Shown here piece by piece: positions 18,655 through 32,117 of a stretch of 33,165 nt of DNA (position 1 is the stretch's first letter; each line of letters begins with the position of its first letter). The notes beneath the pieces are model-generated. The model saw only the letters and a program-made list of their open reading frames with translations, was not told where the DNA came from and made no database searches. The position numbers and the translations under genes are program-made. The DNA is from a virus, in the IMG/VR virus record IMGVR_UViG_3300028394_000210, positions 1 through 33,165 of that record. The stretch is one strand, 5' to 3'.

Positions 18655-18658
18655 AAAG

Positions 18659-19922: not shown

Positions 19923-19951
19923 AGATAAATGTCTGCTAATACTGATAGAGT
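19923..19951 (+). promoter_or_regulatory. array promoter 1 (TGTCTG-N10-TAGAGT)
   Basis: AGATAAATGTCTG, 10 bp, TAGAGT. Weak -10. Drives the micropeptide at 19982. A partial TGTC copy lies 22 bp upstream. Confidence 0.5.
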
Positions 19952-19981
19952 AATAACAACAAGAAAGAAAAGGAAAAGAAA

Positions 19982-20047
19982 ATGCCACTAGTAATACTAA
20001 ACCTAATCACAATCTCAATGTTGATTGTCGTAATCGCTACCCGATAA
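19982..20047 (+). CDS. 21-aa hydrophobic micropeptide
   Basis: MPLVILNLITISMLIVVIATR, a single membrane-spanning stretch. AAGGAAAAGAAA precedes the ATG. Its stop codon TAA lies inside the next promoter. Similar in kind to the peptides at 21165 and 29698. Translation is inferred from promoter, ribosome site and spacing. Confidence 0.5.
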   Translation: MPLVILNLITISMLIVVIATR

Positions 20048-20070
20048 ATGTCGGCACTATCCGCTAAACT
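20043..20070 (+). promoter_or_regulatory. array promoter 2 (TGTCGG-N10-TAAACT)
   Basis: Overlaps the stop of the 21-aa gene. Drives the gene at 20100. Confidence 0.7.
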
Positions 20071-20099
20071 AATAACAACAACAAAGAACGGAAAATGAA

Positions 20100-20240
20100 A
20101 TGAACGAAATACTAAACGCAAAACTAGCCCTAGACCTAGCCAAGCAAAACCTAGATACGCTTATCGCTAAGGGTTGGGATACTGATGAAGACTATAACGA
20201 AGTGTATTGGTTAGAAATGGAAGTCAAGCGGTTATCTTGA
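20100..20240 (+). CDS. 46-aa helical protein, unknown
   Basis: Starts MNEILNAKLALDLAKQNLD and ends WLEMEVKRLS. Charged, probably two helices. The first ATG (20095) reads ATG-AAA-TGA, so the second is used. CGGAAAA precedes. Followed by GC-rich hairpins. Confidence 0.6.
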   Translation: MNEILNAKLALDLAKQNLDTLIAKGWDTDEDYNEVYWLEMEVKRLS

Positions 20241-20293
20241 TGCCCTCGCCAGGGCAACACGCCCGACAGCGTGGGTGCCCCCCCTTGGCGTGT
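20241..20293 (+). terminator. GC-rich hairpins with GGTGCCCCC element 1
   Basis: TGCCCT-CGCC-AGGGCA hairpin, then ACACGCC (20257) pairing with GGCGTGT (20287). The loop holds GGTGCCCCC (20274-20282). No T-run, so terminator function is inferred from position after a gene. Confidence 0.5.
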
Positions 20294-20355
20294 CGTGCCA
20301 AATGTAACAGTTACGTAACAACTACGATTTCTCCTGATTATCTCCTGATTTTTAC

Positions 20356-20384
20356 TAATAAATGTCGGAGGGTAGCCATAGACT
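20356..20384 (+). promoter_or_regulatory. array promoter 3 (TGTCGG-N10-TAGACT)
   Basis: ACTAATAAATGTCGG, 10 bp, TAGACT. Upstream are TTACGTAAC, ACTACGAT and two TCTCCTGATT copies. Drives 20469 through an ~80-nt leader with the GAGCCT repeats. Confidence 0.65.
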
Positions 20385-20399
20385 ATGAACATAAAGAAA

Positions 20400-20445
20400 T
20401 GAGCCTTAGCAAATAAACGAGCAATCGGTGAGCCTAAGCAAATAA
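20400..20445 (+). repeat. paired TGAGCCT(T/A)AGCAAATAA repeat, copy A
   Basis: Two copies 29 bp apart (20400-20416, 20429-20445). Each reads as a five-codon frame (ATG or GTG, then SLSK, stop) in the mRNA leader. A second pair is at 21872-21917. Confidence 0.5.
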
Positions 20446-20468
20446 GTTCTAACAGGAAAGGGAAACTA

Positions 20469-20606
20469 ATGAAGTTTTTAATCACACGCATCGACGGCTC
20501 TGCTCGCAACTACTCTTTTGACTCACGCATTTCTGCCGATGCTCTAAAGTTCTACCGCTGGATGAAGCGTAACGGCAAGATTGCTGACTACAAGATTGTA
20601 GATTAG
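20469..20606 (+). CDS. 45-aa basic protein, unknown
   Basis: MKFLITRIDGSARNYSFD...FYRWMKRNGKIADYKIVD. Alpha/beta character, rich in Arg and Lys. GGAAAGGGAAACTA gives the ribosome site. No known family. Confidence 0.6.
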   Translation: MKFLITRIDGSARNYSFDSRISADALKFYRWMKRNGKIADYKIVD

Positions 20607-20608
20607 CA

Positions 20609-20657
20609 ACACACCCGACAGCGTGGGGGCACCGCCTGTGGATAACTCTGTGTATAA
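20609..20657. repeat. 39-bp direct repeat copy 1 with GGGGGCACC and DnaA boxes
   Basis: 20609-20647 is identical to 21384-21422. It contains GGGGGCACC (20625-20633) and TGTGGATAA (20637-20645). A second box, TGTGTATAA, follows at 20649-20657. Confidence 0.75.
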
Positions 20658-20705
20658 CTTTGTTACGTATCTGTTATAAAACCCCCATAAAAAAGGCGTG
20701 TTTTA

Positions 20706-20736
20706 GCAAATAAATGTCCGAGGGGGTGTTTATAAT
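20706..20736 (+). promoter_or_regulatory. array promoter 4 (TGTCCG-N10-TATAAT)
   Basis: GCAAATAAATGTCCG, 10 bp, TATAAT. Drives 20769. Confidence 0.8.
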
Positions 20737-20768
20737 AAAGGTAGATAGAAAAAGAAATGAGAAATGAA

Positions 20769-20999
20769 ATGAACAAAGAACAAGACTTCCAAATAAACGC
20801 TAATGGCTTTGTAGTGCTAGACGCTCGTGATGGATACCGCCAAGATAACCGCCTATGGTTTGGCAAGTGTTCAGAATGTGGTGATGATGTAACCAACTCA
20901 GCCCTAGATGGTATTTGGCAACACAGACTAATCTTGGCACAAAGCGGTCTAAGCACTACTAGCAGACAGATTGACTACTGCCCTAAAAACAATGTCTGA
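20769..20999 (+). CDS. 76-aa zinc-finger-like protein
   Basis: Starts MNKEQDFQINANGF; the in-frame ATG at 20757 belongs to a leader word (AAAGAAATGAGAAAT) shared with genes at 21528 and 21966. It has CSECGDD, then an HR...C at the end (DYCPKNNV), suggesting a small zinc site. The last codons AAT-GTC-TGA form the TGTCTG of the next promoter. Unknown function. Confidence 0.62.
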   Translation: MNKEQDFQINANGFVVLDARDGYRQDNRLWFGKCSECGDDVTNSALDGIWQHRLILAQSGLSTTSRQIDYCPKNNV

Positions 21000-21014
21000 C
21001 CCTAATGCTAAAAT
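20988..21014 (+). promoter_or_regulatory. array promoter 5 (TGTCTG-N10-TAAAAT), inside gene end
   Basis: The TGTCTG includes the TGA stop of the gene at 20769. Drives 21039. Confidence 0.7.
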
Positions 21015-21038
21015 CAAATCAAGAACAGAAAGAAAAAA

Positions 21039-21164
21039 ATGAACGCTATCCAAATGAAATCTCGATACAACGAACTACTACGCCTAGCAAAGAATGGTGA
21101 CTACTTTTCTATGGCAGAACTTGACGAACTTATCCGCTTGTCGAAAGACTTGGGGATAATCTAA
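21039..21164 (+). CDS. 41-aa helical protein, unknown
   Basis: MNAIQMKSRYNELLRLAKNG then DELIRLSKDLGII. Two amphipathic helices, HTH-sized but too short to call. The upstream AGAAAGAAAAAA is a weak ribosome site. Confidence 0.55.
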   Translation: MNAIQMKSRYNELLRLAKNGDYFSMAELDELIRLSKDLGII

Positions 21165-21221
21165 ATGTCGGTAGCCGTTGTTATGCTTGTTATTGTAATC
21201 GTTGTTCTATTCAATCAGTAA
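21165..21221 (+). CDS. 18-aa hydrophobic micropeptide
   Basis: MSVAVVMLVIVIVVLFNQ, a single membrane-spanning stretch. The ATG abuts the preceding TAA. It reads through an ATGTCGG word with a poor -10 (TATGCT), so the site may now serve as a start codon rather than a promoter. Resembles the peptide at 29698. Confidence 0.45.
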   Translation: MSVAVVMLVIVIVVLFNQ

Positions 21222-21231
21222 AGGAAAAAAA

Positions 21232-21354
21232 ATGTCCCCTACACTATCTTGGATTTTTATCCTATCTCTTGCTTGGGCTTGCCACGCTTGGGTAAATCGT
21301 ATGCACATCCGTTCTTTGCAGGATGAGATTGAGAAGCTTCAGCCTCCGTTCTGA
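21232..21354 (+). CDS. 40-aa single-TM protein with LQPPF tail
   Basis: MSPTLSWIFILSLAWACHAW is a membrane segment; the tail RSLQDEIEKLQPPF is helical. AAAGGAAAAAAA precedes the ATG. The tail matches that of the protein at 23255. Confidence 0.6.
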   Translation: MSPTLSWIFILSLAWACHAWVNRMHIRSLQDEIEKLQPPF

Positions 21355-21383
21355 TACCGCCAACGCCTAGGGTTGTGTCTGCG

Positions 21384-21422
21384 ACACACCCGACAGCGTG
21401 GGGGCACCGCCTGTGGATAACT
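21384..21422. repeat. 39-bp direct repeat copy 2 with GGGGGCACC and one DnaA box
   Basis: Identical to 20609-20647. GGGGGCACC at 21400-21408 and TGTGGATAA at 21412-21420. A GTGTC-TGC-GACAC hairpin lies just before. Confidence 0.75.
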
Positions 21423-21470
21423 TGTTTACGTAATGTTCATTAAATCTCCTAAAAATAAGCTCCTATTTTA

Positions 21471-21500
21471 GCAATAAATGTCGGTGGGTCGTGATACCTT
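21471..21500 (+). promoter_or_regulatory. array promoter 7 (TGTCGG-N10-TACCTT)
   Basis: GCAATAAATGTCGG, 10 bp, TACCTT. Poor -10. Drives 21528. Confidence 0.5.
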
Positions 21501-21527
21501 ATAGGTATAGAAAGAAATGAGAAATAA

Positions 21528-21656
21528 ATGAGAATGAACTTGACCCCTCGTGAAAAGCAAATCCACAAGTGCCAACTTTGTGGTCGCCCTGCCGACTTTG
21601 TTGCGATAATGAAAATCGCTGGCACTAAGTTTCTATGCAATCGCTGTGCAAAATAA
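21528..21656 (+). CDS. 42-aa zinc-ribbon mini-protein
   Basis: MRMNLTPREKQIHKCQLCGR...FLCNRCAK: CxxC plus CxxC with about 25 residues between, a plausible zinc ribbon. The stop TAA is part of the next promoter (AAATAAATGTC). A start at 21534 is possible. Confidence 0.65.
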   Translation: MRMNLTPREKQIHKCQLCGRPADFVAIMKIAGTKFLCNRCAK

Positions 21657-21679
21657 ATGTCTTACCCTACTGCTAAACT
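21651..21679 (+). promoter_or_regulatory. array promoter 8 (TGTCTT-N10-TAAACT)
   Basis: Overlaps the stop of the 42-aa gene. Drives 21705. Confidence 0.65.
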
Positions 21680-21704
21680 AAAAGTAACAAAAGAAAGGAA
21701 CAAA

Positions 21705-21854
21705 ATGTTCACTAACCAAGATGTAATCGTAGCAAGCGTATCCTATGACGACCGCTACTACACCAGCCCATCCTGTGCCGAGTGTGGCGAGTTCTTGTCC
21801 GCAAGAACAATGGCAGACCTAGAAGCCCAAATGCGAGAACACTACTGCGAGTAA
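21705..21854 (+). CDS. 49-aa zinc-finger-like protein
   Basis: MFTNQDVIVASVSYDDRYYT, then CAECGEF and a final HYCE (C-x2-C...H-x2-C). The helix DLEAQMREH between is finger-like. GAAAGGAACAAA precedes the ATG. A longer frame beginning at the ATG of the promoter (21657) is rejected. Confidence 0.65.
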   Translation: MFTNQDVIVASVSYDDRYYTSPSCAECGEFLSARTMADLEAQMREHYCE

Positions 21855-21871
21855 AGTTTTAGGGTCAGGTT

Positions 21872-21917
21872 TGAGCCTAGCAAATAAGTCGGTAAGCCGA
21901 ATGAGCCTAGCAAATAA
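21872..21917 (+). repeat. paired TGAGCCTAGCAAATAA repeat, copy B
   Basis: 21872-21887 and 21902-21917, 30 bp apart, with TCGG-TAAG-CCGA between. The second copy runs into array promoter 9. The first looks like a promoter upstream half without ATGTC. Confidence 0.5.
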
Positions 21918-21940
21918 ATGTCTGACCCTAATGATATTCT
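21911..21940 (+). promoter_or_regulatory. array promoter 9 (TGTCTG-N10-TATTCT)
   Basis: CAAATAAATGTCTG, 10 bp, TATTCT. Drives 21966. Confidence 0.65.
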
Positions 21941-21965
21941 GTAATCACTAAAGAAATGAGAAATA

Positions 21966-22094
21966 ATGAAACCATCCACTTACTTCAAAGTTACTTACTT
22001 GCTTGACGGCAAGCAATGGGTATCCGCTGTTCAGGCTCGTGACTTGACCGCTTTTGTGTTTTCACACAATGTTCTAAAAGTAGAGAGAGGCTAA
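21966..22094 (+). CDS. 42-aa protein, unknown
   Basis: MKPSTYFKVTYLLDGKQWVSAVQARDLTAFVFSHNVLKVERG. A small beta-hairpin plus helix. The leader word AAAGAAATGAGAAAT precedes. It is followed 2 nt later by the next gene. Confidence 0.6.
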   Translation: MKPSTYFKVTYLLDGKQWVSAVQARDLTAFVFSHNVLKVERG

Positions 22095-22096
22095 AA

Positions 22097-22183
22097 ATGA
22101 TAATCCTAACTTTTGAGACTTGGGAAGAGTATGACGAGGCTATTGCCTCAATCGCTACCGCCTACCTACCAGAGGCGGAATAG
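22097..22183 (+). CDS. 28-aa acidic peptide, unknown
   Basis: MIILTFETWEEYDEAIASIATAYLPEAE. It begins 2 nt after the upstream stop and AGAGAGGC is available for ribosome binding. Probably co-translated with it. Confidence 0.45.
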   Translation: MIILTFETWEEYDEAIASIATAYLPEAE

Positions 22184-22198
22184 CGACACGCCAGGGGC

Positions 22199-22207
22199 GG
22201 TGCCCCC
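22199..22207. repeat. GGTGCCCCC element 4
   Basis: GGTGCCCCC after the unit ending at 22183, next to the left arm of the 16-bp inverted repeat. Confidence 0.6.
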
Positions 22208-22250
22208 CGACGTTACCAAAACGTTATTAAATAAGGTTAAGATGTTCCCC

Positions 22251-22276
22251 ATAATGTCTGTGGGTCTTGGTAAACT
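22251..22276 (+). promoter_or_regulatory. array promoter 10 (TGTCTG-N10-TAAACT)
   Basis: TTCCCCATAATGTCTG, 10 bp, TAAACT. Drives 22304. Confidence 0.65.
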
Positions 22277-22303
22277 TGAATTACATCAACGAAAGGACAC
22301 ACT

Positions 22304-22387
22304 ATGTGCGAAGACTACCCTTGCTGCGGACACGACTTTGGAGGTTGCTCTGATTCAGGTCTATTTAGTTGGCAGGAAGAAAACTAG
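22304..22387 (+). CDS. 27-aa Cys-rich peptide
   Basis: MCEDYPCCGHDFGGCSDS... Four Cys and one His in 15 residues could hold one zinc ion. Leader ACGAAAGGACACACT. Peptides starting this way occur in other phages, as far as I recall. Function unknown. A longer frame across 22113-22427 in another frame is not coding. Confidence 0.6.
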   Translation: MCEDYPCCGHDFGGCSDSGLFSWQEEN

Positions 22388-22402
22388 CCAACTCCCTTCG
22401 GG

Positions 22403-22411
22403 GGTGCCCCC
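22403..22411. repeat. GGTGCCCCC element 5
   Basis: Core of GGGGGTGCCCCC (22400-22411), next to a CCC-TTC-GGG hairpin and the right arm of the 16-bp inverted repeat. Confidence 0.6.
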
Positions 22412-22454
22412 GATAACGTTTTGGTAACACTTTACGTAGTGGATTAAAAACCTC

Positions 22455-22482
22455 CTAAAATGTCGGTGGTTCATTCTATAAT
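22455..22482 (+). promoter_or_regulatory. array promoter 11 (TGTCGG-N10-TATAAT)
   Basis: CCTAAAATGTCGG, 10 bp, TATAAT, leader TACAACGAAAGGAAG. Drives 22507. Confidence 0.8.
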
Positions 22483-22506
22483 GTAACTACAACGAAAGGA
22501 AGACTA

Positions 22507-22611
22507 ATGAAAAGGTTTCTAAACCTATGCCAACAGACTGGCAACCCATTCTCAGCAATGTGGATTATGCTTTACTGGACAGACAAGCGAATCGCAAAGC
22601 GTTTCAAATAA
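22507..22611 (+). CDS. 34-aa basic amphipathic protein
   Basis: MKRFLNLCQQTGNPFSAMWIMLYWTDKRIAKRFK. Mid-part hydrophobic, ends basic; may lie on the membrane. The stop overlaps the next promoter. Confidence 0.55.
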   Translation: MKRFLNLCQQTGNPFSAMWIMLYWTDKRIAKRFK

Positions 22612-22634
22612 ATGTCTGTGGTATGCCGTAAAAT
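22606..22634 (+). promoter_or_regulatory. array promoter 12 (TGTCTG-N10-TAAAAT)
   Basis: TCAAATAAATGTCTG, 10 bp, TAAAAT, leader AACTACAACGAAAGG. Drives 22658. Overlaps the upstream stop. Confidence 0.75.
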
Positions 22635-22657
22635 GTAACTACAACGAAAGGAAAACT

Positions 22658-22828
22658 ATGCAAGACACACGCAACCACTATGTAATCGAAATGGACAACG
22701 GAGTTACTTTTGAGGTAGACACACCGCTTGAAGAAGACCAATCAGCATTCTTCATCGACAACTACTACTCTGGGCGTATCTCTCGCCTATGGATAAATGG
22801 CATTGAGTGGCTTGAGCCTACCGAATAA
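22658..22828 (+). CDS. 56-aa acidic protein, unknown
   Basis: MQDTRNHYVIEMDNGVTFEV...ISRLWINGIEWLEPTE. Predicted beta-rich (short strand pairs). GAAAGGAAAACT ribosome site. The stop overlaps the next promoter. Confidence 0.65.
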   Translation: MQDTRNHYVIEMDNGVTFEVDTPLEEDQSAFFIDNYYSGRISRLWINGIEWLEPTE

Positions 22829-22850
22829 TGTCGGTGGCTACCGCTATAAT
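22823..22850 (+). promoter_or_regulatory. array promoter 13 (TGTCGG-N10-TATAAT)
   Basis: GAATAATGTCGG, 10 bp, TATAAT. Overlaps the stop at 22826. Drives 22879. Confidence 0.8.
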
Positions 22851-22878
22851 AAAACTAACAAACAAAGGACAGGAAACA

Positions 22879-23082
22879 ATGGCTAAAATGGCAGACCTAC
22901 TCGCAGAGCAAACCTCTATTCCAACCTTTACCGAAATGGTAGAAGAGTTTGAGGCATTGGTAAAAGCAGAATATCCAAACGACGATTTGGCAATGATTTA
23001 CTCTCGTTGCTATGGCATTGCTTTGGCTCACCTAACAAAAGAACAGATGACCGAAATAATCAAAAACCGAAAGGCTAAATAA
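22879..23082 (+). CDS. 67-aa helical protein, unknown
   Basis: MAKMADLLAEQTSIPTFTEM...YSRCYGIALAHLTKEQMTEI. All-helical. The frame can be extended to the promoter ATG at 22828, but the extension encodes the -10 and leader and is rejected. AGGA precedes the ATG. First gene of a three-gene unit ending at 23389. Confidence 0.65.
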   Translation: MAKMADLLAEQTSIPTFTEMVEEFEALVKAEYPNDDLAMIYSRCYGIALAHLTKEQMTEIIKNRKAK

Positions 23083-23084
23083 TA

Positions 23085-23255
23085 ATGATGACCAGAAAAG
23101 ACTATGTGACCACAGCAGAAATCCTGCGTGGACATCTACCCGACATTGACGACCCAACCTTCGACAGCCTTGTTGAGAGTTTTGGTTTGATGTTCAAAGA
23201 AGACAACGAGCGTTTTATGCTTGATAAGTTTGTAGACGCTTGCTGGGGGGAATAA
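23085..23255 (+). CDS. 56-aa MTRKDY-type phage protein
   Basis: MMTRKDYVTTAEILRGHL...FGLMFKEDNERFMLDKFVDAC. Resembles the many small actinophage proteins starting MTRKDY or MTRKHY, whose function is unknown. Helical. The second ATG (23088) is equally possible. Its stop overlaps the next start (TAATG). Confidence 0.7.
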   Translation: MMTRKDYVTTAEILRGHLPDIDDPTFDSLVESFGLMFKEDNERFMLDKFVDACWGE

Positions 23256-23389
23256 TGAATGATTGGCTTGGTTTGCTTCTTGGCATTGTTGCTTTTGGTA
23301 TTCTTTCTCTTGGGGCAATGAACTTCTATCTACTGCGTGTTATTCGTGAACTAGAGATTGAGAACGAAGGTCTTCAGCCACCCTTCTAG
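23255..23389 (+). CDS. 44-aa single-TM protein with LQPPF tail
   Basis: MNDWLGLLLGIVAFGILSLG is a membrane segment; the tail RELEIENEGLQPPF is helical and matches the tail of the protein at 21232. Translationally coupled to the upstream gene. Confidence 0.65.
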   Translation: MNDWLGLLLGIVAFGILSLGAMNFYLLRVIRELEIENEGLQPPF

Positions 23390-23397
23390 GGTGTGCT

Positions 23398-23406
23398 GGG
23401 GGCACC
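23398..23406. repeat. GGTGCCCCC element 6 (reverse orientation)
   Basis: GGGGGCACC after the unit ending 23389. TTACGTTACGAT and array promoter 14 follow. Confidence 0.6.
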
Positions 23407-23440
23407 GCCAGCCTGGGAAAAGCTCCTTTACGTTACGATA

Positions 23441-23467
23441 ATAAATGTCCCACCCCCAATGTATACT
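23441..23467 (+). promoter_or_regulatory. array promoter 14 (TGTCCC-N10-TATACT)
   Basis: TTACGTTACGATAATAAATG, then TCCC, 10 bp, TATACT, leader ACTAACAACGAAAGG. Drives 23494. Confidence 0.75.
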
Positions 23468-23493
23468 TATACTAACAACGAAAGGGAAACTAA

Positions 23494-24015
23494 ATGTCAT
23501 ACACTAAAATCTATTCCGCTATCGCTAAGAAAGCAACCTTTGGTCAGGTTGAACAAGCCACCAAGTGGTATCTTGATGCAGAGACTGTTGCTCGTGAAGT
23601 TGCTACTAACCTAAACACTACCCTTGAGATTGGAGCAACTGTTGTATCTGCTTTTAGCCCTCGTGAGCGTTGGTCTCGTAATGTTACTAATGCAGTAAAG
23701 TTTTCACTAGGTCACGAACTAAAGGGTGTGCTAGGCAACAACATTCGTATGGCAGAAAAAGGATTGACGCTAGGCTTTGACGCTCTAAAGGGTATGAAAA
23801 CTAACGCCTTTGCTAAGGCTATCGCTGGTAATGAAAATGCAGTCGTGATAGATGTTTGGATGTTGCGAGCATTAGGCATTGAGAAAAAGACACCTACGCA
23901 GTCGCAGTATAAAGAAATGGCAGACGCTGTAACTGCTGTTGCTACTCTGCACGGAATGACACCTAGAGCAATGCAAGCCCTAATCTGGATTGTAGTGAGA
24001 GGGAGTGGCGAGTAA
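23494..24015 (+). CDS. conserved phage protein, possibly HhH-glycosylase-like fold
   Basis: 173 aa, helical. Motifs: VVSAFSPRERWSRNVTNAVK (~52), then KTNAFAKAIAGNENAVVIDVWMLRALG (~102), and a C-terminal MTPRAMQALIWIVVRG. SPR-x-RW...N and A-I-x-G-x(4)-V-x-I-D are recurrent in an actinophage family that, to my memory, resembles helix-hairpin-helix DNA glycosylases. The IDVW position would hold the catalytic Asp-like residue. A base-excision or DNA-binding role is therefore possible but unproven. GAAAGGGAAACTAA precedes the ATG. Confidence 0.65.
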   Translation: MSYTKIYSAIAKKATFGQVEQATKWYLDAETVAREVATNLNTTLEIGATVVSAFSPRERWSRNVTNAVKFSLGHELKGVLGNNIRMAEKGLTLGFDALKGMKTNAFAKAIAGNENAVVIDVWMLRALGIEKKTPTQSQYKEMADAVTAVATLHGMTPRAMQALIWIVVRGSGE

Positions 24016-24029
24016 TCGCTACCCCCAGG

Positions 24030-24038
24030 GGTGCCCCC
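24030..24038. repeat. GGTGCCCCC element 7
   Basis: GGTGCCCCC inside CCCCCAGGGGTGCCCCCCC, followed by TTTACGTTACGAT and promoter 15. Confidence 0.6.
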
Positions 24039-24070
24039 CCTCGCACTCAAACAACTTTACGTTACGATGA

Positions 24071-24097
24071 ATAAATGTCCTACCCATAATGTATACT
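24071..24097 (+). promoter_or_regulatory. array promoter 15 (TGTCCT-N10-TATACT), leaderless
   Basis: ATAAATGTCCT, 10 bp, TATACT, 6 nt, ATG 24104. Confidence 0.75.
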
Positions 24098-24103
24098 AAT
24101 ACT

Positions 24104-24274
24104 ATGAAAAAGAAAAAGAAACCACTGAGTAAACTAAACGAAGCAACTCGCAAGGCTCACTCTAAGGAGTTGTTTGCTAGTCTTATGCTGAATAAGCACC
24201 TTATCGTTACCCCTGAAAACCGCAAGGGAAGTCGTCAAGCAAACATTCGTAAGGCTATCAAGGAGAGTTACTAA
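24104..24274 (+). CDS. 56-aa basic protein, leaderless
   Basis: MKKKKKPLSKLNEATRKAHS...RKGSRQANIRKAIKESY. Strongly basic, helical; may bind nucleic acid. The ATG is 6 nt past TATACT with no ribosome site. An in-frame ATG at 24089 lies within the -10 region and cannot be transcribed from this promoter. One base overlaps the next gene. Confidence 0.65.
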   Translation: MKKKKKPLSKLNEATRKAHSKELFASLMLNKHLIVTPENRKGSRQANIRKAIKESY

Positions 24275-24408
24275 TGATAAGCATCGAAAAACTAATCGAA
24301 CTAGGCGTGTTGCGTAAGTCTATGTTTAGCAATCTAAATAGCGAATGGTATGTTATCTATACCGAGAATGGTCCAGTGGATATTTCTCTTGCTGACCTTA
24401 CTGACTAA
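24274..24408 (+). CDS. 44-aa protein, unknown
   Basis: MISIEKLIELGVLRKSMFSN...YTENGPVDISLADLTD. AAGGAGAG lies in the upstream gene, whose stop overlaps this ATG. The second stop nearby (TAATAA) runs into promoter 16. Confidence 0.6.
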   Translation: MISIEKLIELGVLRKSMFSNLNSEWYVIYTENGPVDISLADLTD

Positions 24409-24435
24409 TAAAATGTCTGTGGCTACCCCTATACT
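24407..24435 (+). promoter_or_regulatory. array promoter 16 (TGTCTG-N10-TATACT)
   Basis: AATAAAATGTCTG, 10 bp, TATACT. Overlaps the upstream stop. Drives 24458. Confidence 0.75.
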
Positions 24436-24457
24436 ATAACTAACAAGAAAGAGAAGA

Positions 24458-24934
24458 ATGACTACTATCGAAAAACTAACCGCAAGCGTAACTACTGACT
24501 GCCTATGCGAGAACGAAGACGGAACACCAGCAAGCGAATGTTTTGACTGCTACGAATGGCAGAAGGAAGACGTTTTCGAGTTGCTAGGGGAATGGCAAAA
24601 GTCTAACAACATTGACGAAGACGACACTATCCTAATCAACGGAACAAAAATGGGTTGGGCTAAACAAGACGGATACAAATACACAAACATTCTTGAACTA
24701 CACGGAGCGTTAGCACTTGACGGAGACTTCCGTATCGAATGGTATCTTGAGAACAACGAACTAACCGCTAGGCGTTGGAGCCACGATGAACCAGTTGGAA
24801 CTGGTTTGTTTACCTTTACTGTCTATCGCTCTTGCGACAAGTGTGGTGAGCCTATCCTTGCTGATGTTCACGCTGAGGAACTTGGTATGTGTGTTGAATG
24901 CTCAAACGCCTACTTCAACCACGAAGACGAATAA
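24458..24934 (+). CDS. 158-aa protein with N- and C-terminal Cys motifs
   Basis: N-terminal CLCENEDG...CFDCYEW, middle beta-rich acidic domain (ILINGTKMGW, FRIEWYLENNELTARRW), C-terminal zinc-ribbon (CDKCGEP...GMCVECS). Unknown family to me. The paired zinc knuckles at both ends suggest a protein- or nucleic-acid-binding adaptor. The stop is part of promoter 17. Confidence 0.68.
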   Translation: MTTIEKLTASVTTDCLCENEDGTPASECFDCYEWQKEDVFELLGEWQKSNNIDEDDTILINGTKMGWAKQDGYKYTNILELHGALALDGDFRIEWYLENNELTARRWSHDEPVGTGLFTFTVYRSCDKCGEPILADVHAEELGMCVECSNAYFNHEDE

Positions 24935-24957
24935 ATGTCGGTAGGTCATTCTATAAT
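24931..24957 (+). promoter_or_regulatory. array promoter 17 (TGTCGG-N10-TATAAT)
   Basis: GAATAAATGTCGG, 10 bp, TATAAT, leader AACTAACAACGAAAGG. Overlaps the stop at 24932. Drives 24982. Confidence 0.8.
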
Positions 24958-24981
24958 AGAACTAACAACGAAAGGTAACTA

Positions 24982-26787: not shown

Positions 26788-26813
26788 TAAATGTCCGTAG
26801 TCCCCTTTATAAT
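26787..26813 (+). promoter_or_regulatory. array promoter 22 (TGTCCG-N10-TATAAT)
   Basis: ATAATAAATGTCCG, 10 bp, TATAAT. Overlaps the end of the 41-aa gene. Drives 26839. Confidence 0.8.
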
Positions 26814-26838
26814 AAAACTAATCACAAGAAAGAAGAAA

Positions 26839-27315: not shown

Positions 27316-27361
27316 GGGGCTATGAACGTCCTGAGCATGACGGTAAAAAGCTCCCTTTAGG

Positions 27362-27370
27362 GGTGCCCCC
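27362..27370. repeat. GGTGCCCCC element 10
   Basis: GGTGCCCCC, then ATTACGTTCATTTACGAT and a C-tract before promoter 23. Confidence 0.6.
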
Positions 27371-27430
27371 GCCTAACCCAAATCTCTATTACGTTCATTT
27401 ACGATAACCCCCATTTTCCCCAAGATAAAT

Positions 27431-27459
27431 AAATAAATGTCTGAGGGTCTTGCTATACT
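27431..27459 (+). promoter_or_regulatory. array promoter 23 (TGTCTG-N10-TATACT)
   Basis: AAATAAATGTCTG, 10 bp, TATACT. Drives the DUF932-like gene at 27498. Confidence 0.8.
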
Positions 27460-27497
27460 AAATACATCAGCAAATCCACTAATGAAAGGTGACCACT

Positions 27498-28517
27498 ATG
27501 GCTCACGAACTAGAAATAGATGAACTAACAGGCGAGGCTTCTTTTGCCTCGCTTCGCCAACCTGCTTGGCACAACCTCGGAACTGTCTTTGAAGAGGAAG
27601 TCAATACCCAGCAAATGCTAAAACTCGCACACCTTGACGAATGGAATGTTCGCCTTGAAGATGTTGCTATCCCTGAGAACTTTGAGAGCGACAAGTCTTA
27701 CTCATTCGTTACTCGCACAAACCCATTTGACAAAACCAAGAACGATGTTCTAGGCGTTGTTGGTGAGCGTTATGTTCCACTACAAAACGAAGACCTATTT
27801 TCGTTTGGGGATAACCTACTAGACGGCGGAGGTCGTTGGGAAACCGCAGGTTCAATCAAGGGTGGCAGACAAGTCTTTGGCTCTATTGCTTTGACTAACT
27901 CTATCACGCTAGACCCAAAGGGCATTGCCGACAAGATAGACAACTATCTGCTAATCAACACAAGCCACGACGGAAGCATCGCTATTCAGGCAAGCATTAC
28001 CCCTGTTCGTGTAGTCTGTGCTAACACTCTCAACCTTGCTCTGTCTTCATTCAAGGGCAAGAAAGCAGCCAAGCAATCTTTCAAAATCCGTCACACCTCT
28101 ACTGCCGAAGGCAAGATTTCTGTTGCTCGTGAGGCTTTGGGATTGGCTAACGCCTACATTGACGAGTTTAGCAAAATGGCTAACGAGATGATTGGCAAGA
28201 CTATTACCGACAATCAGTTTATGGAAATCGTTACCCTTGCTTACCCAGAACCAGAGAAAGACGCTAAGGGTTCGTTCAAGAAATACAATGGCAAGGTTGA
28301 TTTGCTACAAGGTATCTATCGTGGCGAATACAACGACACGATTGCTGGAACGGCTTGGGGGGCATACAACGCTCTAACCGAACGCCTAGATTGGTATCGC
28401 TCGGCTCGTGGTGGAAGCAACGAAAGCATTTACGCTTCTGCTTCTGGCTTTGACCCTGTGATGAACGCAGAGAAAAACCGCTTGATGAAGATTGTTCAGC
28501 AGGTCGTAATGGCGTAA
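27498..28517 (+). CDS. DUF932 / TIGR03299-type phage-plasmid protein
   Basis: 339 aa. N-terminus SLRQPAWHNLGTVFEEEV, then VLGVVGERYVPLQNED, LDGGGRWETAGSIKGGRQVFGSI and VVCANTLNLALSS match the phage/plasmid-like family known as DUF932 (TIGR03299), present in plasmids, phages and integrative elements. The role is unclear; family members have been linked to plasmid maintenance or recombination functions. GAAAGG lies 8 nt before the ATG, after an ~40-nt leader. The start at 27489 is a GTG inside the ribosome site and is rejected. It is the largest gene of the rightward region, alone in its unit. Confidence 0.82.
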   Translation: MAHELEIDELTGEASFASLRQPAWHNLGTVFEEEVNTQQMLKLAHLDEWNVRLEDVAIPENFESDKSYSFVTRTNPFDKTKNDVLGVVGERYVPLQNEDLFSFGDNLLDGGGRWETAGSIKGGRQVFGSIALTNSITLDPKGIADKIDNYLLINTSHDGSIAIQASITPVRVVCANTLNLALSSFKGKKAAKQSFKIRHTSTAEGKISVAREALGLANAYIDEFSKMANEMIGKTITDNQFMEIVTLAYPEPEKDAKGSFKKYNGKVDLLQGIYRGEYNDTIAGTAWGAYNALTERLDWYRSARGGSNESIYASASGFDPVMNAEKNRLMKIVQQVVMA

Positions 28518-28532
28518 GCCATTCTTCCTCTG

Positions 28533-28574
28533 GCTCTCCTGCCCTTATGGGTGGGGGAGCTGGGCGGTGCCCCC
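28533..28574 (+). terminator. terminator-like hairpin plus GGTGCCCCC element 11
   Basis: GCTCTCC..CCC-TTAT-GGG..GGGGAGC (28533-28560) is a strong stem after the DUF932-like gene. GGTGCCCCC (28566-28574) follows. No T-run. Confidence 0.55.
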
Positions 28575-28619
28575 CTCCCAGGGCAACCAGGCTATTTACG
28601 ATAGGCTTACGATTCCCCT

Positions 28620-28648
28620 AAATAAATGTCTGAGGTTGTATGTATACT
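28620..28648 (+). promoter_or_regulatory. array promoter 24 (TGTCTG-N10-TATACT)
   Basis: CTAAATAAATGTCTG, 10 bp, TATACT, leader AACAACAAGGAAAGG. Drives a multi-gene unit starting at 28675. Confidence 0.8.
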
Positions 28649-28674
28649 AATAACAACAAGGAAAGGAAACCCTA

Positions 28675-28854
28675 ATGCCAACTTACAATGTAAAAGTAGT
28701 TGTTGAATACGAATACGAAGTAGATGTAGAGAACGAAGAACTAGCCGAGAAAGAAGGCTGGAACTACGAAGAGTATGCTCACCACGCTTCCGTCTATTCG
28801 ATAGATGTAGAAGAACTAGAAGACTATGACGAAGAGGAAGAGGTAGAAGACTAA
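28675..28854 (+). CDS. 59-aa acidic VEANDP-family protein
   Basis: MPTYNVKVVVEYEYEVDVENEELAEKEGW... ends in an acidic tail (DYDEEEEVED). A strand-strand-helix form shared with genes at 29370, 30463 and the start of 29892. GAAAGGAAACCCTA ribosome site. First of a cluster of tightly overlapped small genes. Confidence 0.65.
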   Translation: MPTYNVKVVVEYEYEVDVENEELAEKEGWNYEEYAHHASVYSIDVEELEDYDEEEEVED

Positions 28855-28994
28855 TGGCTTTTGACCCTAATCGTAAAACAGGTGACTTACTACCCCCTTG
28901 CCCTAAGTGTGGCAGGATTGATAAGTATAATGTTTCAGAACATACCCACGACCTAGACCACATTTTTGGATTTGGAGACCCAGATGACGACTAA
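28854..28994 (+). CDS. 46-aa zinc-site mini-protein
   Basis: MAFDPNRKTGDLLPPCPKCGRIDKY...EHTHDLDHIFG. One CxxC plus an HxH...H cluster, able to hold zinc. The ATG overlaps the upstream stop by one base. Confidence 0.6.
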   Translation: MAFDPNRKTGDLLPPCPKCGRIDKYNVSEHTHDLDHIFGFGDPDDD

Positions 28995-29097
28995 CATCGA
29001 AGACTATCGTAAACTCTTAGAGGCTATAATGTCTGAGGGGCTTGCTAAAATAGAAGCACTATCAGATGAAGAACTGAGAAAGGTTATAAATGAGTAA
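28984..29097 (+). CDS. 37-aa helical peptide
   Basis: MTTNIEDYRKLLEAIMSEGLAKIEALSDEELRKVINE. Starts inside the end of the 46-aa gene. The middle codons form an array promoter word (TGTCTG-N10-TAAAAT) at 29030. Coding and promoter uses may both be real. Confidence 0.55.
   Translation: MTTNIEDYRKLLEAIMSEGLAKIEALSDEELRKVINE
29027..29051 (+). promoter_or_regulatory. array promoter 25 (TGTCTG-N10-TAAAAT), intragenic
   Basis: ATAATGTCTG, 10 bp, TAAAAT inside the 37-aa gene. Would drive 29090 and following genes. Confidence 0.5.
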
Positions 29098-29173
29098 ACA
29101 CGAACACACTTGGATTTGCGACTTCTGCGAATGCGGAGCGTATCTAATAACCCCACCAAAGAAGGATAAATAA
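29090..29173 (+). CDS. 27-aa Cys-rich peptide
   Basis: MSKHEHTWICDFCECGAYL...KKDK. CDFCEC and two His, possible zinc knuckle. The ATG overlaps the previous gene's stop by 8 bp and its own stop overlaps the next start (TAATG). Confidence 0.55.
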   Translation: MSKHEHTWICDFCECGAYLITPPKKDK

Positions 29174-29373
29174 TGGCTGATTACTTTTCACACGATTCTG
29201 CTTGGATTGCAGACGACGGTTCTTATGGAGCAGGTCTGGTTATGTATTTTAGCCCTGACGCCCTGACCGAAGAACAATGGGATGTTCTAGATAACCTAAA
29301 TGACGGAGCGAAGTTTGACTATGTTCACGCTGTTCTAAATAACGAAGACCTATCGGAATGGGAAGACAGATGA
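29173..29373 (+). CDS. 66-aa acidic protein, unknown
   Basis: MADYFSHDSAWIADDGSYGAG...FSPDALTEEQWDVLDNLND. A helix-rich C-terminal half after a beta start. Coupled to both neighbours by overlapping stop/start codons. Confidence 0.62.
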   Translation: MADYFSHDSAWIADDGSYGAGLVMYFSPDALTEEQWDVLDNLNDGAKFDYVHAVLNNEDLSEWEDR

Positions 29374-29543
29374 CTAAGTATCTTGTTACAGGTTACTACA
29401 CTACCCCTTGGACTATTGAGGTAGAAGCCAATGACCCAGATGAAGCATACAAACTTGGCTATGATGCTTTGTTCTATGCTAACGAGGGTAACGAAGGCGA
29501 AGGCGAATGGCTAGATGAACTAGAAGTAGAGGAAGCAGAATGA
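29370..29543 (+). CDS. 57-aa VEANDP-family protein
   Basis: MTKYLVTGYYTTPWTIEVEA then NDPDEAYKLGYDALFYANEG, acidic C-terminus. Strand-strand-helix layout shared with 28675, 30463 and 29892. ATGA overlap with the previous gene; an upstream in-frame ATG at 29358 is rejected. Confidence 0.65.
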   Translation: MTKYLVTGYYTTPWTIEVEANDPDEAYKLGYDALFYANEGNEGEGEWLDELEVEEAE

Positions 29544-29698
29544 CCCAGATAGAAAGCCTATTGGCAGAACGCAAAGCAATCGAAAAGGACTATCAGAAGT
29601 TTGGCACTAAGTTAGACCCTTGGACCCATGACCTATTTATAAATAGACTAGACATGATTGAGGATATGCTTGATAACGAAGGATACTACAACCGATAA
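29540..29698 (+). CDS. 52-aa helical protein, unknown
   Basis: MTQIESLLAERKAIEKDYQKF...INRLDMIEDMLDNEGYYNR. Two helices. ATGA overlap with the previous gene. Stop overlaps the next start. Confidence 0.6.
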   Translation: MTQIESLLAERKAIEKDYQKFGTKLDPWTHDLFINRLDMIEDMLDNEGYYNR

Positions 29699-29757
29699 TG
29701 TCAGAGTTAGTAGTTATATTGTTAGTGTTTGTAATACTTTGGATATTTAGCCAGTAG
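29698..29757 (+). CDS. 19-aa hydrophobic micropeptide
   Basis: MSELVVILLVFVILWIFSQ, single membrane-spanning stretch. The ATG overlaps the upstream stop (TAATG). Similar in length, start (MS-V) and ending (Gln) to the 18-aa peptide at 21165. It reads through a TGTCAG-N10-TATATT word, so this site may also be a weak promoter. Confidence 0.5.
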   Translation: MSELVVILLVFVILWIFSQ

Positions 29758-29763
29758 GGAGCT

Positions 29764-29771
29764 GGGGCACC
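29764..29771. repeat. GGTGCCCCC element 12 (8 of 9, reverse)
   Basis: GGGGCACC after the 19-aa gene. Two ATTACGATG words and a C-tract lead to promoter 27. Confidence 0.55.
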
Positions 29772-29840
29772 ATCCCTATGTATCTTTATTAATATACTTT
29801 ATCTATTACGATGCATTACGATGTTCCCTAAATTTCCCCT

Positions 29841-29869
29841 AAATAGATGTCGGTGGTCTGTCGTATACT
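29841..29869 (+). promoter_or_regulatory. array promoter 27 (TGTCGG-N10-TATACT)
   Basis: AAATAGATGTCGG, 10 bp, TATACT, leader AACTACAAAGAAGGAG. Drives 29892. Confidence 0.75.
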
Positions 29870-29891
29870 ATAACTACAAAGAAGGAGAGAT

Positions 29892-30422
29892 ATGCATACA
29901 TTACATTGGATTGCTGTAGAAGCAAATGATAAAGACGAAGCAACTACTAACGCTACCTCGCTACTTGAAGCACAAATGGGTAACGAAGACAACTACACAT
30001 CTTGGTATGACTGGTTCATAGTTGGTGGAGGTCGTTGGAATACCACCGAGGATGACGGTATTATGGAAGGTTATAAGACCAAGACTAATATGATTATCTC
30101 ATACAAGGAAGACCCTAACGCTTTCAGGGCTAAGATTGACGACTGTATCCAACAGCGTATGGTTGATTACAAGCAGTATCTTGCTGAGGTCAAGGAAAGC
30201 AACATCATTCACAAACTAGATAACTATGGTGGGGCTATGTCTTATGACTACCACTTCTACGCATTGAACGCTCTACTAAGGTTTCAAATGGGTTCGTGGT
30301 CTCACGACAGTTGGTTCTATGACTTCATTACCGACAGCACTAACGCTACCCACATTCTTAGCAAACTAGACAACAACGAAGGTGAAAACTTTTACCTTGT
30401 CCCTATTGACTTCCACTTCTAA
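29892..30422 (+). CDS. 176-aa VEANDK-start protein, unknown
   Basis: MHTLHWIAVEANDKDEATTN, then WYDWFIVGGGRWNTTEDDG, long helical stretch (ITDSTNATHILSKLDNNEG). The GGGRW motif with a DWF before it is a conserved patch I associate with unnamed phage proteins. AAGGAGAGAT ribosome site. Its N-terminus is related to the VEANDP family. Confidence 0.68.
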   Translation: MHTLHWIAVEANDKDEATTNATSLLEAQMGNEDNYTSWYDWFIVGGGRWNTTEDDGIMEGYKTKTNMIISYKEDPNAFRAKIDDCIQQRMVDYKQYLAEVKESNIIHKLDNYGGAMSYDYHFYALNALLRFQMGSWSHDSWFYDFITDSTNATHILSKLDNNEGENFYLVPIDFHF

Positions 30423-30462
30423 ACCTGCTACACTATTATCCTAAGAGAAAGAGAAAACGCAA

Positions 30463-30669
30463 ATGGCACTATTCAAAGTATCCCTATCATTCCACTTTGA
30501 CGACGAGTATGAAGTCAATGCAGACAGTTATGACGAAGCAGAGCAATTGGCTATCGAAATGGCTGAAGAGTGGAAGCCTTACTCTTCCGAGAAGGGCGTT
30601 ACCTACGATTGGTATTCCGTAGATGTAGAAGGTGTTTACACAGACGAAGAGTTGGATGAAGATGAGTGA
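30463..30669 (+). CDS. 68-aa acidic VEANDP-family protein
   Basis: MALFKVSLSFHFDDEYEVNADSYDEAEQLA..., very acidic C-terminus (TDEELDEDE). Same layout as 28675 and 29370. AAAGAGAAAACGCAA precedes the ATG; a TGC-TACACT word near 30430 may be a weak promoter. No TGTC-N10 element here. Confidence 0.65.
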   Translation: MALFKVSLSFHFDDEYEVNADSYDEAEQLAIEMAEEWKPYSSEKGVTYDWYSVDVEGVYTDEELDEDE

Positions 30670-30835
30670 GTGTGATTGCGACAAAGTTGTTTGTCCTAAG
30701 CACCACGGCAGTTTTGACTGCAATTCCTTTTGCGACATTTGCGAAGGTAATACAGAATACTGCCCTACCCACGATGAGTATTCAGATATACAAGCAAAGA
30801 TTTATCTAAACACCTATAAGGAAGAAAATGCCTAG
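30662..30835 (+). CDS. 57-aa Cys/His-rich zinc-finger protein
   Basis: MSECDCDKVVCPKHHGSFDC...FCDICEGNTEYCPTHDEYSD. Eight Cys and three His, enough for two zinc ions. Overlaps the previous stop by 8 bp (ATGAGTGA); an upstream in-frame ATG at 30632 is rejected. Confidence 0.68.
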   Translation: MSECDCDKVVCPKHHGSFDCNSFCDICEGNTEYCPTHDEYSDIQAKIYLNTYKEENA

Positions 30836-31241
30836 ACTTACCTATGACGAATGGTTTGACACGTTCAAGCCTATCAAGAACAAGCACAGTATTGATAGTG
30901 ATTACTCTGGCATTACCGCTTTCGAAACCTATGGCGAAGAACTAGAGTTTGTTCGCTCTCAACCAGACAACACTATCTGGACTGAGATGGATGGTGACAG
31001 CGGTGTATACATTGTTGAAGGCTACCACCTAGTAAACCGTATTCAGTATTACATCACCGAAGTCCCCTACGACCCTGAGCAGTCCTATGAGATTCCTATC
31101 AGTATTGACAAGGAATGTGATTGTATGTCTGAGGGTGGTGCTAACATTGATTGTGATGAATGCAACGGCAATGGCTACATTACTATTTGGATTGACACAC
31201 GAGAAGAAATGGAAGAAATTTATGGAACCGAGAATGTTTGA
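30828..31241 (+). CDS. 137-aa protein with Cys-rich DnaJ-like knuckle
   Basis: MPRLTYDEWFDTFKPIKNKH..., beta-rich middle, then CDCMSEGGANIDCDECNGNG, which resembles a CxxCxGxG-type zinc knuckle of DnaJ proteins. The start overlaps the upstream stop. Confidence 0.65.
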   Translation: MPRLTYDEWFDTFKPIKNKHSIDSDYSGITAFETYGEELEFVRSQPDNTIWTEMDGDSGVYIVEGYHLVNRIQYYITEVPYDPEQSYEIPISIDKECDCMSEGGANIDCDECNGNGYITIWIDTREEMEEIYGTENV

Positions 31242-31425
31242 AGAATGGCAGATTGACAAGGAGAACTTTGAGAGTTTCCTTGACGCAGACTTAGTAGACC
31301 TACCACTGTCTGATGAAGTATGGAAAACTATCATCAGTGACGTAGAAGGTTCAGTGGCTAACTATCTTGATGAACTTCTACAGCGAACTGCTTTGGATGT
31401 TCAGGAAGGCTTCTACGATGAGTAA
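31222..31425 (+). CDS. 67-aa acidic helical protein
   Basis: From MEPRMFEEWQIDKENFESFL; the first ATG has GGAAG 6 nt upstream, and ATG 31234 is an alternative. Helical, acidic. The end overlaps the next gene. A much longer frame back to 31087 shares this frame but runs antisense-free through another gene and is rejected. Confidence 0.6.
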   Translation: MEPRMFEEWQIDKENFESFLDADLVDLPLSDEVWKTIISDVEGSVANYLDELLQRTALDVQEGFYDE

Positions 31426-31756
31426 AGAGTGGGACCTAAACATCTTCTTCAGGAAAGATTACAACGCCGATACTGAAGAGACTACAATGGACGACGTACT
31501 AACGATTAACCCTGTAGTGTGGACCATGGAAGACGGAGTCACCCAGACGTGGTATACCGACATCATCTATACCACAACGTTTGCAGAGGCTCGTTACCTT
31601 CGTAGCCAGTATGCAGAAAAAGAGTATGGCTATGACTGGACGGACAATCTAGAGAACTTCCTAGAGATTGCTCCACCTAGGCTTGCAAGTCTGCTCAAGA
31701 CCCTTCCTGAACCAGGCAAGTTCTTTGACGAACACCTTTTAAGCTTGGTAGGTTGA
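31418..31756 (+). CDS. 112-aa protein, unknown
   Basis: MSKEWDLNIFFRKDYNADTEETT...VVWTMEDGVTQTWYTDIIYTTTFAEARYL. Alpha/beta, with an aromatic patch WTMEDG...TWYTD. Overlaps the previous gene by 8 bp. Last gene of the unit that began at 30463. Confidence 0.62.
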   Translation: MSKEWDLNIFFRKDYNADTEETTMDDVLTINPVVWTMEDGVTQTWYTDIIYTTTFAEARYLRSQYAEKEYGYDWTDNLENFLEIAPPRLASLLKTLPEPGKFFDEHLLSLVG

Positions 31757-31811
31757 GTTTACTCCTTACCATGGTAGAGAATATCTAAGGGGTTGGGTAT
31801 GGCTCTACAGG

Positions 31812-31850
31812 GGGGCTGGGATTCTTTCCTTTCTTGTCCTAGTCCCCCAA
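31812..31850 (+). terminator. GC-rich hairpin after the 31.4-31.76 kb unit
   Basis: GGGGG-CT-GGA / TCC-AG-CCCCC with internal mismatches and a T/C-rich loop. No T-run. Precedes promoter 28. Confidence 0.5.
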
Positions 31851-31861
31851 ACAACTTCCCC

Positions 31862-31887
31862 ATAATGTCTGGGGTATCAGGTATAAT
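31862..31887 (+). promoter_or_regulatory. array promoter 28 (TGTCTG-N10-TATAAT)
   Basis: TTCCCCATAATGTCTG, 10 bp, TATAAT. Drives 31914. Confidence 0.8.
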
Positions 31888-31913
31888 GGAAAAGATAACT
31901 AAATAGGAGAGTA

Positions 31914-32117
31914 ATGCGTAAGAAACTAATAACACCAGAACAGAAAGTAGCGACTAAGATAGCAAGTCTAGTTAGTGATGTAACAATTGACTTAGAACAA
32001 GTAGGTATCTCAATCGCAAGGGATAATCCCAATGTAGTCTATCGAAGATTACAGGAAATCGCAGAAGTAGCAGAACACGATAAAATGTCGAAGGGTCAGG
32101 GTATAATAGAAGTATGA
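31914..32117 (+). CDS. 67-aa basic helical protein
   Basis: MRKKLITPEQKVATKIASLV...PNVVYRRLQEIAEVAEHDKM. Helical, basic N-terminus. Its last 12 codons encode an array promoter (TGTCGA-N10-TATAAT), and the stop overlaps the next start by ATGA. Confidence 0.65.
   Translation: MRKKLITPEQKVATKIASLVSDVTIDLEQVGISIARDNPNVVYRRLQEIAEVAEHDKMSKGQGIIEV
32081..32107 (+). promoter_or_regulatory. array promoter 29 (TGTCGA-N10-TATAAT), intragenic and leaderless
   Basis: ATAAAATGTCGA, 10 bp, TATAAT, then 6 nt to ATG 32114. Lies wholly in the end of the 67-aa gene. Confidence 0.75.

Follow-up and report, generated by a model that had tools for sequence, protein, structure and literature searches.

The virus record IMGVR_UViG_3300028394_000210 (33,165 bases, analysed over its whole length and called the window below) carries in its right-hand part an array of promoter-like sites in which a normal −10 hexamer and initiator are preceded, at a fixed distance, by a conserved element, WAAATGTCNGWSS, that spans about −32 to −20 and is hereafter called the box. 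The case is strong that these sites make up a strong promoter class found throughout one phage clade, and a substitution of the box for the −35 hexamer is well supported, because between orthologues a promoter may have the box, the canonical −35 or the two together. Since the AAATGTC box appears to stand in for the −35, the phages may steer the host RNA polymerase themselves. Judged from these sequences, dozens of box promoters appear to turn on the many tiny genes of these actinobacterial phages, which form a large uncultured group.

A minimal pattern, ATGTC-N12-TANNNT, has 30 matches in the window, all on the + strand between 19929 and 32107, whereas 100 dinucleotide shuffles of the window gave a mean of 1.86 and a maximum of 5, so that the repeats described in an earlier note on this DNA do not occur at random frequency. 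The −10 hexamers comprise 11 TATAAT, 6 TATACT, 3 TAAAAT, 3 TAAACT and 7 weaker forms, as counted earlier except for the weaker class, for which the earlier note had 6. The stricter pattern AATGTCNG-N10-TANAMT occurs 19 times in the forward direction, and neither in reverse nor when read backwards (0 each), and a 45-bp weight matrix finds 27 + strand sites above 7 bits and no − strand site above 3 bits. Pattern and matrix scans thus agree that every site points rightward, as had been claimed. The 10-bp spacing is likewise fixed: across ten arrays, TGT[CT]NG-N-TATAAT is found 98 times at N=10, never at N=8, 9 or 11-21, and once each at N=22 and 23. The single relative reported outside the array (18633-18654) exists as well, and lies on the − strand just upstream of the structural-side genes. 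A product of chance or coding constraint, that is, AT-rich repeats that only look like promoters, has a practically negligible probability. Three of the 30 matches are indeed weak (21165, 29698 and 31125, which are not among the 27 matrix sites and may be chance), but the shuffles, strand and spacing, together with the initiator and leaderless starts described below, contradict it.

The anatomy of the promoters was read from 171 sites of ten contigs, chosen by a matrix that contains AATGTC, and it is in this selected set that AATGTC at −30 to −25 is nearly invariant. It is accompanied by a conserved A at −31 (76% of the sites), G at −23 (93%) and A or T at −22 (96%); the upstream word noticed earlier is therefore real, but the true conserved stretch is longer. 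Downstream, the −10 consensus is TANANT, the initiator is YA (A at +1 in 89% and a pyrimidine at −1 in 94%), and the start of the predicted transcript is A-rich from +4 to +8; the box promoters thus have the −10 hexamer and initiator of sigma-70/sigma-A promoters. Positions −21/−20 read GG in 119, CC in 32, AG in 10 and GC in 4 of the 171 sites and are rarely mixed, and with −22 included the triplet is TGG, AGG or ACC, which defines two sub-classes of the box. Predicted leaders are 15-24 nucleotides long in 116 of 195 box sites with a downstream open reading frame (ORF), in a count that looked only from +1 onward. A recount begun at the end of the −10 places an ATG exactly at +1 in 20 sites, which belong to about ten gene families, whereas the six preceding positions hold two starts and the nine following one, and the leaderless start recurs in all 8 of 8 orthologues of one gene and 3 of 3 of another. 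Leaderless mRNAs are common in actinobacteria. With −10, initiator and leaders as in promoters, the earlier description of rightward phage promoters with a non-standard upstream element holds, and the array probably consists of real, co-oriented promoters from which the small-gene block would be transcribed.

The relation between the box and the −35 hexamer was assessed on promoters recognised by −10 and start alone. In the ten arrays, 132 of these have the box only, 11 a −35 only, 8 both and 18 neither in the sense orientation, and three are antisense; as its training set consisted of box promoters, the −10/start matrix is biased towards these. A TTGACA-like −35 at 16-18 nucleotides is present in 8 of 140 promoters with the box versus 11 of 29 without it (p = 1.8e-5), and in 74 of 543 versus 75 of 212 across 80 loci (p = 1e-10), p-values that are optimistic as the loci are related. 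The upstream element is thus not a sigma-70 −35, as the earlier note had maintained. Positions 19700-32500 show no enrichment of consensus promoters: the two strands together have 14, and shuffles 24.3. Outside the arrays of the ten contigs, [TG]TGACA-TATAAT peaks at a spacing of 17 (12 vs 0-4 elsewhere), and therefore canonical promoters exist in the same phages; TTGACA-N17-TATAAT promoters coexist with box promoters in the same contigs, and those outside the arrays mostly lack the box. Across loci, the densities of box and TTG-N17 sites are only weakly anticorrelated (rho −0.19, p = 0.015), and replacement is therefore incomplete and mixed.

Orthologous promoters illustrate this mixture. For example, the promoter before the gene of a 50-amino-acid array protein (family F7) has the box only in the window, G002, G016 and G018, the box and a −35 in G001, and a canonical form in G003, G004, G007 and G008; a second, box promoter lies further upstream of some of these genes. 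Counted over box-rich loci with identical promoters dropped, F7 promoters comprise 42 with the box, 13 with both elements, 7 with a −35, 12 with none and 23 without a −10; those of family F6 comprise 37 with the box, 11 with a −35, 10 with none and 38 without a −10; and those of the DUF932 gene 23, 26, 3, 6 and 42 in the order given for F7. The notion that only an activator operon keeps its canonical promoter was attractive in the ten contigs and was abandoned, F7 not being special over the box-rich loci.

The array-bearing phages form one clade, to which Karimac and other Streptomyces phages are distant relatives. In viral_contigs, a scan with an exact pattern returned 96 loci, of which 65 have at least two matrix sites (63 of these on one strand only) and share, without exception, gene families with the clade of the window; 17 have one matrix site, 14 of them sharing no clade gene family, and 14 have none. 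Loci were also sampled blind to the box through the DUF932 protein, some of them within the same contigs. A first query alignment, five of whose six sequences came from box phages, gave 80 loci, 78 of which have two or more sense sites (1068 sites in sense and 31 in antisense orientation), 8 of the 80 also having two or more antisense sites, and a distant DUF932 member gave 66 new loci, 65 of them with two or more sense sites (691 sense, 0 antisense). All but one of 22 loci of Karimac-like type (L263-L284) have one box site or none. Along the tree, box density rises from 0-1.6 per 10 kb in Karimac-like phages, through 0.8-7.6 in a group with a GC content of 35-39%, to 18.7 in L183. This is the contig of G001, which has the capsid protein most similar to that of the window among those seen (85% identity). 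The relatives with a GC content of 35-39% (L299-L340) have blocks rich in TTG-N17 promoters and are mostly box-poor, and are possibly intermediate between Karimac-like and window-like phages. A megablast search of the array against named phages gave no match, and the motif is not named in any paper found by a literature search of partial coverage.

We regard a MotA-like phage activator of the host sigma-A polymerase as the likely reader of the box. The host sigma-A RNA polymerase would read the normal −10 and initiator, the clade-specific box would replace the −35 hexamer, and a box-binding protein touching sigma or core, most likely phage-encoded, would supply the missing −35 contact, much as MotA and AsiA do at T4 middle promoters. 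It may be suggested, tentatively and somewhat short of probable, that this widespread uncultured group of actinobacteriophages evolved its own sigma appropriation independently of T4, with a phage protein recognising the AAATGTC box, and that the promoters of dozens of its genes were converted one by one from canonical through hybrid to box-only, with all stages persisting in relatives.

An alternative sigma factor, which the earlier note had also considered, is not supported by the data. None of 16 array-bearing records has Sigma70 region 2 or, above the cut-off, region 4 (which gave two partial sub-threshold matches), in searches in which control genomes gave matches, the records being incomplete and other sigma types possible; moreover, the −10 is canonical and canonical −35 promoters coexist. 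The MotA_activ domain was found in 0 of 16 records in a search in which no positive control matched either. Among 77 families seeded from the ten contigs, presence of F6 best tracks the box: it occurs in all 11 box-rich contigs (85-117 kb), two of three intermediate ones, none of the six box-poor ones (74-132 kb) and four of five others, all of them possibly incomplete. Where at least 4 kb of sequence precedes DUF932 (132 loci), F6 is present in 112 loci, whose median is 7.7 sites per 10 kb, and absent from 20, whose median is 0.7. We treat F6 as a lead, not a finding. Its model has one long helix plus strands (predicted local distance difference test score, pLDDT, 85.7). Searches of Pfam and PHROG gave no match for the window member and weak ones for other members (best E 0.005 and 0.009), and against the PDB the best sequence match has E 0.16 with no fold match at E 0.001. 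The membrane-protein-like F56 is in all 11 box-rich and all three intermediate contigs, and in none of the six box-poor or the five others. F7, which has members in every box-rich (11 of 11) and intermediate (3 of 3) contig and in half of the box-poor ones (3 of 6), was considered as a CarD/Tudor-like factor and set aside: its model is all-beta (mean pLDDT 85.5), yet no PDB match reached E 0.001. Neither F6 nor F7 matched named phages by tblastn.

Several observations weigh against a phage activator or against F6 in that role, besides the training of the −10/start matrix and the weak anticorrelation given above. No box-binding protein was identified, and support for the dedicated activator proposed in the earlier note is inferential. 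F6 changes only three times on the tree, which leaves little phylogenetic independence; 22 F6-minus loci keep a box excess (32 at N=10 vs a mean of about 7 at other spacings), L261 having 8 sites, and two F6-positive loci are without any box. With the Karimac DUF932 protein as query, only 32 of 80 loci have at least two sites (129 sites in sense and 29 in antisense orientation). WhiB, the obvious candidate, is encoded by 23 of 24 further contigs, box-poor ones included, and by Karimac. Finally, by homology with Karimac, the block may enter and be read first, before any new phage protein.

This last point bears on a rather unlikely alternative, in which host machinery (sigma-A, spacer contacts of the polymerase or a host activator such as WhiA) reads the box, the −35 is dispensable and no phage factor is needed. 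Reading by the host alone is plausible because the block is probably early, a timing suggested by the similar arrangement in Karimac, where each end of the genome holds a copy of the block; promoters that combine box and −35 are also common, and the WhiA motif GACAC, as given in PMC4850268, resembles GACAT in the complement of the box. However, an element read by the host should also serve phages of other lineages that infect these hosts, and every locus with at least two sites among the 96 has genes in common with one phage clade; the box is mostly absent from canonical promoters outside the arrays; and the stricter pattern returned 34 bacterial or archaeal stretches from genome_contigs, none titled actinobacterial and one titled merely 'Bacterium', with an insensitive pattern and unassigned hosts. 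Many of these stretches come from one Mollicutes metagenome-assembled genome.

Another, improbable, alternative to the phage activator we favour is that the box is the site of the phage WhiB-like protein itself, bound to sigma-A region 4 and with an altered DNA specificity. The family gene is found in 11 of the 16 array-bearing records, all five misses being records under 70 kb, and it was not found within the window fragment; the hosts of the array phages are probably actinobacteria because the phages carry WhiB. Wbl proteins bind sigma-A region 4, and one WhiB3 crystal described in PMC10245118 had region 4 off the −35. However, WhiB as the sole cause is weakened by its presence in box-poor phages and Karimac, and its C-terminal tail looks equally conserved in the box-poor G019. 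WhiB7 contacts, as described in PMC10245118, lie upstream of the −35, whereas the box lies at −32 to −20.

The window is probably a fragment of a larger genome because related contigs reach 85-117 kb and Karimac 132 kb. Its left part encodes, on the − strand, the capsid protein, protease, portal and a B12-type ribonucleotide reductase, and the array side, on the + strand, many ORFs of 41-176 amino acids together with a DUF932 gene of 342. The reductase (11389-13428, −) is 96% identical in G004 and 92% in G007, whereas the capsid protein of G004 is only 65% identical and its other genes are likewise more diverged than its reductase, as would follow from either recent transfer or strong constraint.

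Between the array and the structural genes (about 18640-18760, −) lies a promoter-like TATAAT or near match followed by a hairpin of about 50 nucleotides. On its loop side the hairpin has a conserved CATACCCAC; a T-run comes next in several of the contigs, and another TATAAT-like site in most of them. The locus is in the same place in G001, G002, G003, G004, G007, G008 and G011, and perhaps yields a tiny phage RNA from its own promoter; Rfam gave no match in the window.

Features of the window. Coordinates of box promoters and weak matches give the ATGTC-N12-TANNNT span; hexamers are the −10, and +1 is predicted from sequence.
Feature	Coordinates	Strand	Remarks
Major capsid protein	2669..3799	−	~40% identity to Streptomyces phage homologues (Karimac, Wakanda, Daubenski)
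Array of ~27 strong predicted box promoters (30 minimal-pattern matches)	19921..32121	+	most shortly before a small ORF
Box promoter	19929..19951	+	TAGAGT; +1 19958
Box promoter	20048..20070	+	TAAACT; +1 20077
Box promoter	20362..20384	+	TAGACT; +1 20391
Box promoter	20714..20736	+	TATAAT; +1 20743
Box promoter	20992..21014	+	TAAAAT; +1 21021
Weak minimal-pattern match, uncertain	21165..21187	+	absent from matrix list
Box promoter	21478..21500	+	TACCTT; +1 21507
Box promoter	21657..21679	+	TAAACT; +1 21686
Box promoter	21918..21940	+	TATTCT; +1 21947
Box promoter	22254..22276	+	TAAACT; +1 22283; no ORF of at least 38 amino acids within 350 nucleotides
Box promoter	22460..22482	+	TATAAT; +1 22489
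Box promoter	22612..22634	+	TAAAAT; +1 22641
Box promoter	22828..22850	+	TATAAT; +1 22857
Box promoter	23445..23467	+	TATACT; +1 23474; precedes DUF7178 gene
Box promoter, leaderless gene	24075..24097	+	ATG = +1 24104, likewise in all 8 orthologues seen
Box promoter	24413..24435	+	TATACT; +1 24442
Box promoter	24935..24957	+	TATAAT; +1 24964
Box promoter	25678..25700	+	TATAAT; +1 25707
Box promoter	25757..25779	+	+1 25786; orthologues with box only, −35 (G003, G004, G007, G008) or both (G001)
F7, 50-amino-acid array protein	25828..25980	+	model is a small all-beta fold
Box promoter	26025..26047	+	+1 26054; precedes early protein F6
F6, 149-amino-acid early protein	26082..26531	+	ORF open from 26025; presence best tracks box among 77 families
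Box promoter, leaderless	26633..26655	+	ATG = +1 26662
Box promoter	26791..26813	+	TATAAT; +1 26820
Box promoter	27437..27459	+	TATACT; +1 27466; precedes DUF932 gene
DUF932 protein	27489..28517	+	marker for sampling homologous arrays
Box promoter	28626..28648	+	TATACT; +1 28655
Box promoter	29029..29051	+	TAAAAT; +1 29058
Weak minimal-pattern match, uncertain	29698..29720	+	absent from matrix list
Box promoter	29847..29869	+	TATACT; +1 29876
Canonical-type promoter within array	30406..30434	+	TTGACT-N17-TACACT, TG before −10; grouped by gene with G001 −35 promoter
Weak minimal-pattern match within ORF, probably chance	31125..31147	+	absent from matrix list
Box promoter	31865..31887	+	TATAAT; initiator AG, not YA
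Box promoter, leaderless	32085..32107	+	ATG = +1 32114

The arrays provide natural promoters of a single class by the hundreds, and because sets of orthologues include canonical, hybrid and box-only forms, the stepwise rewiring of a viral regulon can be read directly from them. The box also offers a sharp in-silico marker by which the small-gene block of these phages can be recognised in metagenomes. If our reading is true, it further points to a novel factor that directs actinobacterial RNA polymerase.

Among known systems, the block of Karimac and its relatives (Stanwilliamsviridae) is homologous to that of the window, with a DUF932 gene and a similar repeated −10/start region. In Karimac, the genes of the small-gene block, which include a DUF932 relative, diverge from those for the reductase and the structural proteins, and the order and lengths of the genes place the block at both genome ends. 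Its promoters, read from the −10/start pattern, differ in having TTG 17-18 nucleotides before the −10 in 12 of 19 matches and in lacking the box: no box site in the Karimac block scores with the matrix, and a home-made expectation-maximisation motif search there gave no clean motif. The Gordonia phage Vardy (cluster DJ) is another actinophage with a 50-bp repeated intergenic promoter motif containing TATAAT, reported in five copies (PMC9671010), where we see seven similar TATAAT contexts. It differs in its upstream words and has no TGTC peak at the 10-bp spacing; words such as CTCGCA and ATTACAC precede TATAAT in L483 (Vardy), by eye without a TTGACA-like −35, and the repeat is possibly another −35-less promoter class. 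Cultured Nanopelagicales phages, according to PMC10202952, carry WhiB together with a sigma-70 factor, unlike the 16 array-bearing records, in which none was found. Promoters of the WhiB7 type have in common with ours a Wbl protein in the clade (though not in the window fragment); they differ in that their AT-rich contact lies upstream of an existing −35, whereas here the −35 is mostly absent.

The operators and stoperators of cluster A mycobacteriophages, described in PMC9283540 as asymmetric repeats aligned with transcription, suggest a further reading, in which the box is an operator for a phage repressor or silencer at every early promoter. Its asymmetry, single orientation and many copies do have the layout of L5-type sites. 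However, stoperators are repressor-bound, occupy short intergenic spaces as well as promoters and have no fixed spacing to a −10, whereas the box always lies at one distance from it, and a repressor would not require the −35 to be mostly missing beside its site; we consider this reading very improbable. The start-associated sequences of cluster K also are repeats before non-structural genes, but typically lie 3-7 bp before start codons, at the ribosome-binding site (PMC3203893). The box sites thus differ from both kinds of repeat, as the earlier note had proposed.

The closest parallel to the phage activator that we favour is the T4 middle promoter, with its MotA box and sigma appropriation by MotA and AsiA (PMC6755090). 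As described there, a phage box replaces the −35 at about the same place before a canonical −10 and positions −37 to −33 are little conserved; here too, the box takes the place of the −35 at a fixed position and −37 to −33 show little conservation. The differences lie in the box sequence, in its core, centred at about −27 here and between −30 and −31 in T4, in the hybrids with a canonical −35 and in the probable actinobacterial hosts. By this analogy, the box promoters would work like a T4 middle promoter.

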